From IMG/VR virus record IMGVR_UViG_3300017986_000030, positions 1 through 50,131 of that record: a stretch of DNA of 50,131 bases; one strand, 5' to 3'. The position numbers and the translations under genes were made by a program. This document shows positions 1,657 through 5,199 of the stretch, piece after piece (the first letter of the stretch is position 1; each line of letters opens with the position of its first letter). This DNA comes from a virus. Under the pieces are notes generated by a model. It was not told the origin of the DNA. It saw only the letters and a list, made by a program, of their open reading frames with translations, and did not search any database.

Positions 1657-1678
1657 AAAGGGGCTTCGGCCCCTTTTT
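1657..1678. terminator. UUCG-tetraloop terminator shared by convergent operons
   Basis: AAAGGGGC TTCG GCCCCTTT forms a GC-rich stem with the very stable UUCG loop, followed by TTTTT on the plus strand. A run of A on the left makes it work for the minus strand too. It lies between the peroxiredoxin stop (1650) and the tape-measure stop (1677-1679). Confidence 0.9.
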
Positions 1679-3548
1679 ATCCTAGAGCTACCTGTTCTCC
1701 AGAACCACCTGTTGCATTATCTACAATAACCTGACCTTGACTCCAATTATTTCTTGAGTTTTGAACGAATTGATTATTGTATGTATTATTAATAACCTGA
1801 GTATTAACAAAAGCACCACCGCCAGCAGAAGCAAGGGAAGCTAATGTTTCTGAGGCACTTGTATTATCTAACATTGCTATTGGTTGCATGCCAATTGATT
1901 CCAAGAATTCATTTCTTCTTTTATTGGCCATTTCTTGTATTTTTATAGTATTTTGAAGCTGACTATAAGGAGTTGCTATATCCTTTTCTATTTTGTTTAT
2001 TTGCTTTTCTAAATCCTTTCGCTTTTTCTTTGTCTCTTCATCGGTGCCATCACCAACACTTTCTAATCTGGTTCGTAAATCGGTAAGTTCGGCTAAAGGT
2101 TCGGCAAGTTGATTTTCCAATGTTGCTCTTGTTTCGGCAATTTCCTTAGCAGTTGCATTTAGTTTAGTTGCCATATTTTCGGGAGTTAAACCCTCAGAAT
2201 CCATTAGTGTGATTTCTCTTTTTAAGGCCTTCTCCACCTTATTTGGTATATCGTCAATACCTAAATCAGTAAAGCTATCTTGATATAGTTCGACTGTGGA
2301 TCTGGCAACACCACTAAGAAATCCCCATACGCCACCAGATACAGCACCAGCAGTAGTTCCAAGACCGGGAACAACACTACCAACACCAGCACCAACACCG
2401 ATCGAAATACCTGTTTCTAATGCAATATCTCCTAAACCAGTTCTGGCCGATTGGTCAAATTCTCCTGTGGCCAAAAGACCCAGAACTTCTCTATCAGTCA
2501 AAGTTTTTGCGTCAACACCATTCATTGCAATATCAGTTGCAATGACAGCAGGACCTACAATAGGCGTTCCTTTAACGATATTTTTTCCTGTAGTCACTAA
2601 TCCTTTTTTGGCAAGCTGTAATGGGTCAGGCTTTCTCGCGATATTTGGATTTGGTTTGCCTTTACTATCAAACAACTCATCTTGTCTGGCATTATTCATA
2701 TTGACTTTAGGCTTAGGCGGGTCTTTCTTTGGAGGAGCAGGAGGACCCATTTTTTTCTTAGGAATATATTTCTTTGCTCTATCATATAATGTTAAACCAA
2801 ATCTGCCTAGGCCTGTGAATGCAGATATTATAGACGCTAAACCCAATGCTCCCACCAAACCAAGAAGTATCTTTGTCCACGTTGACTCTTGGATATTTTC
2901 TATCATATTTGTTATGTCTTTAACAGCTGGGTCTTGAAGAGCATTATTAATACCCTGTTGAATTCCGTCGTTTATACCCTTGGTTATGCCATCTTGAAGG
3001 TCTACTTTTAGTCTTTCACCAGCGTCATCTAGAAATTGATTTCCTCTGGTCTCCATGGCCTTAATAAAACCACCTTCACTTTCAAACTTTTTATCTAAAG
3101 CTCCTAATGCAATATTACCAGCAACAAATCCAATAGCTCCAATAATGGCAGCATTTTTTAATAATTTTTTAGTATCACTTTCTTTAAATTTTGCAAATAG
3201 GCCAGGACCTTTGGCATCTCTTAATTCTTGTTTTGCTCTTAATGCGTCTGCCTTTGCTCGAAGTTCTGCTGCCTTTGCTTTATCTTTTTGTGTGAGTTCA
3301 TCAATCTCGCCTTGACGACGAGCTCTTTCTGCTTCTTCCTTTTTAATCTTATTTTCGATATCGGAAGCTTGTTTTATTACAGCTGTATTATTGAGCATAG
3401 CTGCATTAATTGCTTTAAAAGTAGTATGCAATTTATCAAGATTAATATTGACTTGCTTTATAGAATTTTTCCCACTATTACGAATTAAATCGCCTTCATT
3501 TTTAAGACGTTTTAAAATAGCTTCTGTTTCTAGGCTCATTTCTGCCAT
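1677..3548 (-). CDS. 29: Tape-measure-like tail protein (T4 gp29 position), 623 aa
   Basis: The N-terminal 120 residues are charged and helical (coiled-coil like, rich in K/E/A). Hydrophobic segments follow at about 131-155 (KNAAIIGAIGFVAGNIALG) and 225-255 (KILLGLVGALGLASIISAF). A glycine-rich patch lies near 375-415 (IGVGAGVGSVVPGLG), then a second coiled-coil region (about 450-560) and an Asn-rich tail. This mix of coiled coil and buried hydrophobic stretches is typical of tape-measure proteins, which set tail length and are ejected through the tube. At about 1.5 angstrom per residue it would specify a tail near 93 nm, as in T4 (590-residue gp29). It is last in the minus operon, 3 bases after the gp26 frame-extension ORF, the usual place for a tape measure. 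Assignment rests on architecture and order. Confidence 0.65.
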   Translation of the reverse strand: MAEMSLETEAILKRLKNEGDLIRNSGKNSIKQVNINLDKLHTTFKAINAAMLNNTAVIKQASDIENKIKKEEAERARRQGEIDELTQKDKAKAAELRAKADALRAKQELRDAKGPGLFAKFKESDTKKLLKNAAIIGAIGFVAGNIALGALDKKFESEGGFIKAMETRGNQFLDDAGERLKVDLQDGITKGINDGIQQGINNALQDPAVKDITNMIENIQESTWTKILLGLVGALGLASIISAFTGLGRFGLTLYDRAKKYIPKKKMGPPAPPKKDPPKPKVNMNNARQDELFDSKGKPNPNIARKPDPLQLAKKGLVTTGKNIVKGTPIVGPAVIATDIAMNGVDAKTLTDREVLGLLATGEFDQSARTGLGDIALETGISIGVGAGVGSVVPGLGTTAGAVSGGVWGFLSGVARSTVELYQDSFTDLGIDDIPNKVEKALKREITLMDSEGLTPENMATKLNATAKEIAETRATLENQLAEPLAELTDLRTRLESVGDGTDEETKKKRKDLEKQINKIEKDIATPYSQLQNTIKIQEMANKRRNEFLESIGMQPIAMLDNTSASETLASLASAGGGAFVNTQVINNTYNNQFVQNSRNNWSQGQVIVDNATGGSGEQVALG

Positions 3549-3551
3549 ATA

Positions 3552-3719
3552 TTATTTCTCTTTTTGTGACTCCAAGAAGTTAATTAACATTTGGAAATAC
3601 AAATCCCTTTCGTAAGGTAATAAATTTTCTATTTCTGTTATTGAGTATTTATGGTGCTGTACCAAACTAAATATCATTTGATAATACTCGCTAAGAGTAA
3701 TGTGGCACAGCGCTAGATA
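3552..3719 (-). CDS. -1 frame extension of gp26, 55 codons (putative tail-assembly chaperone tail)
   Basis: This ORF lies in the -1 frame relative to gp26 and runs from the slippery site to the TAA at 3554-3552, three bases before the tape-measure ATG. It encodes YLALCHITLSEYYQMIF and then a well-formed helical protein ending LINFLESQKEK, with a central TEIENLLPYERDLYFQ segment that looks like real coding sequence. It has no ATG near its beginning. The first ATG (3677-3675) would cut off the first 14 codons and has only a weak upstream purine run. The simplest reading is that it is made as a 287-aa gp26 fusion by -1 frameshifting at 3725-3719. A non-ATG start or the internal ATG remain possible. 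Confidence 0.6.
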   Translation of the reverse strand, partial: YLALCHITLSEYYQMIFSLVQHHKYSITEIENLLPYERDLYFQMLINFLESQKEK

Positions 3720-4414
3720 AAAAAACTTCTAGTACCCTCAACAACAAATGTTTGTTCCTTTCCTTCCTTATTTGTGTAAGGTATTTCATGCCTTAATTTT
3801 GGCATTGTTTCGAAAAACTTTACAACTTTATTTAAAACATCGCTAGATAAACTATTCATAAATTCTTCTGTTTCTTCATCAGAATAATCTTTAAAATATT
3901 CAATTTCATCTTCCGATGCAACCTTATCTAAACAACTTGTCATAATATAATATGAAGTTAACGAATCACCAAATCCCATCTGAACAACCCTTACAAAAGA
4001 TTCAATTGTAGGATATTTTAAAAATAATGTATAATCATCATTTAATTTAATTTCCTTTGAATGTTCTGCCTCGTTTGTAAGTTTAACCTCATCTAAATTT
4101 AGTTCCAATTCTACTTTTTCTTCTGTATCTGGGTCAGAAACTACAAATTTTAATATATTATCTACAGAAGCAGACCTTAAAACCATAATTAAATATTCCA
4201 AATCAAACATTGGTATTTCATCAATATCTAAATTAACAAAACAATTATTGACAATTTGTTTCATTGCCAATATTTCTGCTGCCGGGTCGTCTGCCTCCTG
4301 AGCAACAAGAAGAACTTTTTCTTCCTTAACCGTAAACGGTCTATATTTTACTTTTTCACCCGTTGATGGTTGTACACATTCCATTAACGGTAAATCAATT
4401 TTTGGCAAAGCCAT
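3713..4414 (-). CDS. 26: Baseplate hub / chaperone protein gp26 family, 233 aa
   Basis: The N-terminus reads MALPKIDLPLMECVQPSTG and then VKYRPFTVKEEKVLLVAQE, the typical opening of the T4 gp26 family (T4_baseplate, PF12322). The rest is a mixed helical domain of the expected length (T4 gp26 is 208 aa). The start has AGGAG 8 bases upstream. In T4, gp26 is needed for baseplate hub assembly. Here the gene lies between a tail-tube-fold gene and the tape measure, the place that tail-assembly chaperones hold in other phages. Its last codons are AGT TTT TTT ATC TAG, which creates a T7 slippery run just before the stop and leads into a conserved-looking -1 ORF. That suggests gp26 may be the short form of a gpG/gpGT-like pair. 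Confidence 0.85.
   Translation of the reverse strand: MALPKIDLPLMECVQPSTGEKVKYRPFTVKEEKVLLVAQEADDPAAEILAMKQIVNNCFVNLDIDEIPMFDLEYLIMVLRSASVDNILKFVVSDPDTEEKVELELNLDEVKLTNEAEHSKEIKLNDDYTLFLKYPTIESFVRVVQMGFGDSLTSYYIMTSCLDKVASEDEIEYFKDYSDEETEEFMNSLSSDVLNKVVKFFETMPKLRHEIPYTNKEGKEQTFVVEGTRSFFI
3719..3725 (-). other. Candidate -1 ribosomal frameshift site (T TTT TTT)
   Basis: On the minus strand seven T residues are read as (AG)T TTT TTT ATC TAG in the gp26 frame. Both tRNAs could re-pair perfectly after a -1 slip, the classical X XXY YYZ arrangement. The gp26 stop is only one codon later. A CGCT/AGCG stem with a 16-base loop can be drawn downstream (3712-3709 with 3692-3689) but is weak. Confidence 0.55.
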
Positions 4415-4431
4415 AATATACTCCTATTTTA

Positions 4432-5199
4432 TCAAATCACATCAGAAACACGACCTACCGCGTTTCTAAATCTACTTATTCTGTTTATAGCATCTTGGAT
4501 GCTTGTTGGACGACCACCTTTTTTAATTCCTCGGATTGTGTCTGCAAGACCACCAAGTCGCCCTAATAAATCTAAGAATCCACCACCACGACCACGTCGG
4601 CCATCTGTCGGCGAACCTGTCTTTTCTCCAGTCACCTGCATTTCATCATAATTAAATGATACTGCAGATGTTAGGAATGAATCGTTATTGTTCCAGGCCA
4701 AATCTAAATCACTAATTGCGTTTGGCCATACACCAGTAAATTTCCACTCGTAATATTTGTCATCAAAACTTTCTGTGGAATAATGTCTTATTGTTAATGT
4801 GCAAGAATAATCATCTTTAAACCCAACCTCGTGTGGATATCTACCATCCACCTCTGAATATGCTCCACCTGATGTACTATAGTTTACAACTTGTTGCAAC
4901 CAACCATGGAAAAATTTAATCATTTCATGGTCAGAATCAATTAATATATTACAAGATAAACCATCATTTGAAACTGTTGTGGGGAAGGACCTAGGCAAAG
5001 CTCCTACTGGAGCATAGTCTGCTGTATTAATACTAATCGAAGGAATTGTGACAGCATTACAAAAGAATGTAAATTCTCTTAATGGGTCAAATTCTGCATC
5101 TGCTGAATTTTTTGTAAGAATGACTTCGAATAAAGATTCAAGCGCAACACCACCTCTTCTATCCATTGCCGATTTAAATTTATTAATATTGAATGGCAC
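4432..5199 (-). CDS. Tail-tube-fold baseplate protein (gp19 family; gp54 position), 255 aa
   Basis: The sequence carries the T4 tail-tube (gp19, PF06841) pattern. Residues about 45-75 read FFCNAVTIPSISINTADY then PRSF. The hallmark near residue 150 is EWKFTGVWPNAISDLDLAW followed by NNND, then SFNYDEMQV. The C-terminal 60 residues are Gly/Arg-rich and extra to the tube fold. In T4 the initiator gp54 and cap gp48 are related to the tube, so this gene, placed with gp26 and the tape measure, is probably the tube initiator rather than the major tube protein, which normally sits beside the sheath. The start is GTG (5199-5197), supported by GAGGA with 7-base spacing. The preceding C-terminal half of the split gene ends only 4 bases away. 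Confidence 0.7.
   Translation of the reverse strand: MPFNINKFKSAMDRRGGVALESLFEVILTKNSADAEFDPLREFTFFCNAVTIPSISINTADYAPVGALPRSFPTTVSNDGLSCNILIDSDHEMIKFFHGWLQQVVNYSTSGGAYSEVDGRYPHEVGFKDDYSCTLTIRHYSTESFDDKYYEWKFTGVWPNAISDLDLAWNNNDSFLTSAVSFNYDEMQVTGEKTGSPTDGRRGRGGGFLDLLGRLGGLADTIRGIKKGGRPTSIQDAINRISRFRNAVGRVSDVI

Follow-up and report, generated by a model that had tools for sequence, protein, structure and literature searches.

The question raised by this locus is whether gp26 and the small open reading frame (ORF) that follows it are two genes, or one gene that is read in two frames. The locus lies in a stretch of viral DNA of 50,131 nt (IMG/VR record IMGVR_UViG_3300017986_000030, positions 1 to 50,131), referred to here as the window, which belongs to a marine-type relative of phage T4. 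The features under discussion, in the order in which they are transcribed, are the following:

4432 to 5199, minus strand: upstream neighbour, a protein of the tail-tube type (gp54/gp19-like); match to phrog_45 (tail tube), E 6e-37
3713 to 4414, minus strand: gp26, the predicted short product (TAC-N-like), 233 aa; PF12322 T4_baseplate and phrog_150
3735 to 3739, minus strand: Shine-Dalgarno (SD)-like GAGGG, candidate upstream stimulator; its GAGG ends 10 nt before the heptamer
3719 to 3725, minus strand: T TTT TTT, the slippery heptamer, in phase with the gp26 frame
3656 to 3711, minus strand: downstream stem-loop, candidate 3' stimulator; 5' arm 3711-3703 GCUGUGCCA, 3' arm 3664-3656 UGGUACAGC
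3552 to 3719, minus strand: -1 frame extension (gp51 or TAC-C-like), 55 codons and a stop; phrog_634
1677 to 3548, minus strand: candidate tape measure gene, 623 aa, next downstream; assigned by position and synteny only

The gp26 gene runs from an ATG at 4414 to a TAG at 3715-3713 and is made up of 233 codons. Its product matches the family profile PF12322 in Pfam with an E-value of 2e-51 (175 bits against a cut-off of 24.5) and the PHROG profile phrog_150 with an E-value of 8e-57, and tblastn finds matches to it in 572 phage records, mostly from cyanophages. The 3' end of the gene reads AGT TTT TTT ATC TAG. An earlier note on this DNA had proposed that gp26 and the ORF behind it form a -1 frameshifted tail-assembly chaperone pair, with a T TTT TTT heptamer at 3725-3719 one codon before the stop, and this placement is exact to the base, the single codon being ATC at 3718-3716. 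Read in the -1 frame from 3719, the sequence encodes YLALCHITLSEYYQMIFSLVQHHKYSITEIENLLPYERDLYFQMLINFLESQKEK over 55 codons and closes with a TAA at 3554-3552, so that the frame is open, as the note had it, to within three bases of the ATG at 3548 that begins the 623-aa gene. Joined to 232 residues of gp26, these 55 would give a predicted long product of 287 aa.

Conservation of this arrangement was followed at 103 loci, made up of the window, 80 loci from viral contigs and 22 from named phages. Redundancy was removed by clustering gp26 at 70% identity, which gave 69 clusters having the site. At 102 of the 103 loci, gp26 closes with an in-phase T TTT TTT, T TTT TTC or T TTT TTG and the -1 ORF is open behind it, the layout of a G/GT-type pair in which a short gene is extended by a predicted frameshift close to its 3' end. 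The -1 ORF is 54 to 66 codons long in all clusters. It is not a chance opening of the frame, because its product matches phrog_634 ("baseplate hub assembly catalyst") with an E-value of 5e-21, tblastn finds matches to it in 560 phage records, mostly from cyanophages, and the heptamer accompanies it in phase in nearly all relatives. The heptamer is present in 69 of 69 clusters with the site, against 22.8 expected from their own codon usage (log10 P -36.5, an index and not a probability, as the clusters are phylogenetically non-independent). The codon 5' of the heptamer is always AGT, ACT, GAT, TCT or AAT in these clusters and never a synonym ending in C, and at other F[FL] dipeptides of gp26 the T TTT form is used in only 15 of 145 cases. 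The site is therefore an X XXY YYZ heptamer that is in phase and kept beyond codon usage, the pattern looked for in a programmed -1 site. From the sequence evidence, we hold with high confidence that the predicted frameshift site is real.

Several loci depart from the window in the layout around the slip site. In HTVC008M (locus L098, 3190-3210) and Melnitz-2 (L099, 3185-3205), the sequence is TTT TTT TAA, with the stop directly after the heptamer, and gp26 ends on the slip site itself. Pelagibacter phage Mosig (L004, 1492-1525) has eight sense codons in the gp26 frame between the heptamer and the stop, which overlap the -1 frame. The sole exception among the 103 loci is Vibrio phage 1.255.O (L100, 3119-3160), listed under Ackermannviridae, where the gp26/gp51 pair has a TAATG start and no heptamer, a possible switch to restart.

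Signals of the kind expected to stimulate slippage lie on both sides of the heptamer. The window stem, of 9 bp, starts 7 nt past the heptamer; the fold of 88 nt that contains it is predicted at -18.8 kcal/mol (z -2.8). Across the 69 clusters, the 75 nt downstream of the heptamer fold better than synonymous recodings in which the -1 frame peptide was held fixed (mean z -2.28, Wilcoxon p 7e-13), compared with a mean z of -0.02 in the next 75 nt, which served as a control. Within the clade of the window, an 11-bp helix has 88% of its cells paired and shows 29 double-sided changes versus 15.3 after shuffling and 0 to 3 when slid by 1 to 3 columns, counts that were made after the stem (9 to 11 bp) had first been recognised by eye. 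At one pair of the helix, 13 of 30 sequences have U-A or U-G in place of A-U. RNAalifold returned no consensus structure for the same 30-sequence alignment. The P-SSM2-type lineage has a different stem (GTATGGCTCA/TGAGTCATAC), and S-PM2 has another of 14 bp, both at about the same distance from the heptamer. At the level of sequence, the downstream element is thus a stem that is kept beyond what protein coding asks for and that covaries, and it is a candidate stimulator.

On the upstream side, 63 of 69 clusters have a GGAGG, GAGG or AAGGA whose end lies 7 to 10 nt from the heptamer. SD matches of at least 5 nt occur in 54% of clusters versus 31 ± 5% in synonymous simulations, although the element follows in part from conserved E-G residues. 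The glutamate at this place is encoded by GAG in 28 of 49 cases; the share of GAG over the whole gene is 28%.

Of the competing explanations, the one that fares best concerns only the stem, which may serve another purpose, for example masking a start codon or acting as a terminator, while frameshifting would need the heptamer alone. In some clusters the ATG that overlaps the gp26 stop does sit in the 5' arm. The stem is equally present where there is no ATG at all (the window and loci L032, L042 and L065), however, and the stems begin 5 to 7 nt after the heptamer, inside the 5 to 9 nt at which stimulatory structures of -1 sites are looked for, and carry a large branched loop with no U tract. 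We consider such an alternative role unlikely.

A second possibility is that gp51 is a separate protein, made by termination-reinitiation at a TAATG or TGATG or from an internal start, and that the T-run is merely coding. This is how public records present it: cyanophage entries give the ORF as a gene of its own, gp51, with inconsistent starts, and the records of S-MbCM100, S-WAM2, AS-szw and S13 omit it. An ATG overlaps the gp26 stop in 22 of 69 clusters, and Vibrio phage 1.255.O pairs such a start with the loss of the heptamer. An SD-like sequence of at least 4 nt at a usable distance is found at only 1 of these 22 overlapping ATGs, however, and conservation of the heptamer far beyond codon usage would be hard to place if the run were only coding. 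In the window, codons 1 to 14 of the -1 ORF contain no ATG, GTG or TTG; the first ATG is codon 15 (3677), which bears out the earlier observation that the ORF has no ATG near its beginning. Codons 1 to 14 are likewise free of ATG in 37 of 69 clusters, and codons 1 to 10 are free of ATG, GTG and TTG in 23 of 69, the window and 22 others. The peptide encoded there is conserved nonetheless. With three divergent phages set aside, histidine at codon 6 and leucine at codon 9 are invariant in the remaining 20 of 20 start-less clusters, and differences among these 20 peak at the third position of the -1 frame (0.36/0.41/0.61). T4, moreover, encodes the gp51 domain fused to a gp26-like domain. Restart may add some separate gp51 in the 22 clusters with an overlapping ATG, and on the sequences compared it cannot explain expression of the gp51 ORF across the whole family. 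As the sole source of gp51 it is very improbable. The earlier note had asked whether relatives keep the T-run and the -1 ORF without a start codon; the T-run and the ORF are kept at 102 of the 103 loci, and a start codon is not conserved. The opposite case it named, a clear ATG and ribosome-binding site with no slippery run, is approached only in part and by one distant phage, Vibrio 1.255.O.

The least probable of the three, that the long form arises from transcriptional slippage on the T-run, draws on the seven T of the window and of 49 of 69 clusters. It is judged very unlikely, since the run is down to six T, with C or G next, in 20 of 69 clusters, and the strict reading-frame phase and a stem 5 to 7 nt downstream are the layout of ribosomal -1 frameshifting.

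It is very likely, in our judgment, that gp26 and the "gp51" ORF make up a single gene for a tail-assembly chaperone, which would give a short and a long form through a -1 slip before the stop. T4 itself organises these parts differently. T4 gp26 (208 aa) is a PF12322 domain alone, and the 3' end of its gene, GAG TTC TTT GAG TTA CTA TAA, holds no heptamer. T4 gp51 (249 aa) is made up of a second PF12322 domain (residues 1-201) followed in frame by a phrog_634 piece (E 1e-23 for gp51 against that profile). This C-terminal piece is homologous to the -1 ORF of the window, with an aligned stretch of LSEYYQMIFSLVQHHKYSITEIENLLPYERD and onward (hhalign E 6e-5, probability 64). Genes 26 and 51 are divergently transcribed neighbours in T4, 44RR, ZZ1 and Krischvirus G5211. 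T4 thus has two divergently transcribed paralogous genes and no slip site, whereas the window has one gene with a heptamer, and the PF12322 domain is common to both. In a tree of these proteins, a branch with support of 98/94 has all gp26 proteins of the frameshifting kind on one side, and the gp51 proteins group together (100/99). Support for the gp26 group is weak and there are long branches, and the tree sets neither the root nor the direction of change. Judged by these domains, T4 is a phage that splits the putative short and long forms between the paralogues 26 and 51, and the most economical account is that two forms which had been products of frameshifting came to be encoded by separate genes in the T4 core group. 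The claim of a G/GT-type frameshifted gp26 pair is supported by the conserved site and -1 ORF and by the lack of a conserved start, with the qualification that T4 itself has no frameshift.

T4 gp51 is required for assembly and is absent from the particle (PMC3004832). Sullivan et al. (2010) described cyanophage gp51 as about 20% of the usual length, lacking the first ~200 residues and aligning only with the C-terminal region. They regarded it as a gene of its own that had been reduced, and did not mention a frameshift (PMC3037559). The two-gene reading of T4 26 and 51 accounts for this short cyanophage gp51. It may also bear on Aeh1, in which gp51 has been reported missing. The Aeromonas phage AS-szw, which we take to be close to Aeh1, has no gp51 gene in its record and does have the frameshift ORF, and the same ORF may explain the absence in Aeh1.

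Two further phages show unusual gp51 loci. In Enterobacter phage EC-F2 (L107, 2501-3794), a long gp51-like gene and a gene of 185 aa stand in tandem, in that order; the end of the second product, RGLEAFLKVVG, is similar to gp26, perhaps another arrangement of the duplicated pair. The gp51 of Acinetobacter phage ZZ1 (L106, 2501-3255) is annotated as short (191 aa), and tblastn needs two pieces to cover it; an error in sequencing or a change of frame within gp51 is suggested by this.

The 623-aa gene is a candidate tape measure by position and synteny; its product gave no sequence match to the tape measures of relatives in Pfam, in PHROG or among the proteins of Cr30, phiM12 and HTVC008M. AlphaFold2 models were built from gp26 and the extension as separate halves. 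Both models are good: that of gp26 (pLDDT 89.6) has a short helix at the slip-site end, and the extension (pLDDT 81.5) is modelled as three helices. A Foldseek search of the gp26 model against the PDB gave no fold match with E below 0.001 and matched no solved TAC, and when solved structures were searched by sequence, neither gp26 nor the extension had a convincing relative. Named matches of the gp26 model in BFVD are mostly gp26-type hub proteins. Folds like that of gp26 also occur there inside much larger phage proteins (e.g., A0A8S5TGZ1, 669 aa), so that some phages may have this domain in fusion with other tail proteins. By eye, two plus-strand genes beside the tail cluster resemble known proteins: the one at 1138-1650 of the window a peroxiredoxin, and the one at 552-1082 a small heat-shock protein of the Hsp20 type.

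Under the single-gene reading, most ribosomes would stop at the gp26 stop and release the 233-aa short form. A minority would be paused by the stem 5 to 7 nt downstream and, with help from the upstream SD-like element, would slip by -1 on U UUU UUU to yield the 287-aa long form with its 55-aa helical C-terminal domain. By analogy with lambda gpG/gpGT, both forms probably coat the tape measure protein, recruit tail-tube subunits and then leave. In T4 and the Straboviridae core group, the same two products would come from the paralogues 26 (short) and 51 (long, an in-frame fusion). We infer frameshifting in this host and the chaperone mechanism; position and homology point to the chaperone function.

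A review of 2016 still listed T4 as an exception (PMC5009743). Vladimirov, Gautam and Davidson (2022, Virology 566:9-15) then described TACs in T4-like phages, with poly-T frameshift signals in the TAC-N genes, as cited in PMC12846349. The gp26/gp51 frameshift in T4-like phages was already published in 2022, so the main claim is not new, and the frameshifted T4-family chaperone that the earlier note proposed has this precedent. The abstract of the 2022 paper reportedly states that several groups of T4-like phages have kept frameshifting and that T4 uses genes 26 and 51 separately. What is possibly new is the pairing of stimulatory signals and the reason that cyanophage gp51 looked "80% truncated". 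Probably, a dnaX-like cassette of SD-like element, U UUU UUY and covarying stem is under selection in most of the sampled T4-like lineages, marine and other, with the T4 core using two genes and a few lineages an overlapping start. If true, this would form a natural series in which to study the gain or loss of recoding, and would explain the "truncated" cyanophage gp51. Hundreds of phage records with a separate or missing gp51 would be corrected, the likely product being a gp26-gp51 fusion (287 aa here), and T4 gp26 and gp51, which have for long been catalogued as hub chaperones with an unclear function, would be unified as short and long forms of a tape measure chaperone. Because the signals are conserved, the ratio of short to long form can be tested directly by reporters.

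A related arrangement is that of lambda, where one gene gives the tape measure chaperones gpG and gpGT, a short and a long form, through a -1 frameshift near its end (PMC5009743). Both lambda gpG/gpGT and the proposed gp26/gp51 pair are short and long forms from one gene, with no sequence similarity found between them. The slippery sequences differ as well, the lambda heptamer being G GGA AAG and the one here T TTT TTT. The dnaX gene of E. coli has an SD-like element some 10 nt upstream of its heptamer, with a stem on the 3' side. The gp26/gp51 site appears to share this layout, with an SD-like element upstream and a stem downstream, while its heptamer is U UUU UUY in contrast to A AAA AAG in dnaX, and its stem encloses a large branched loop.
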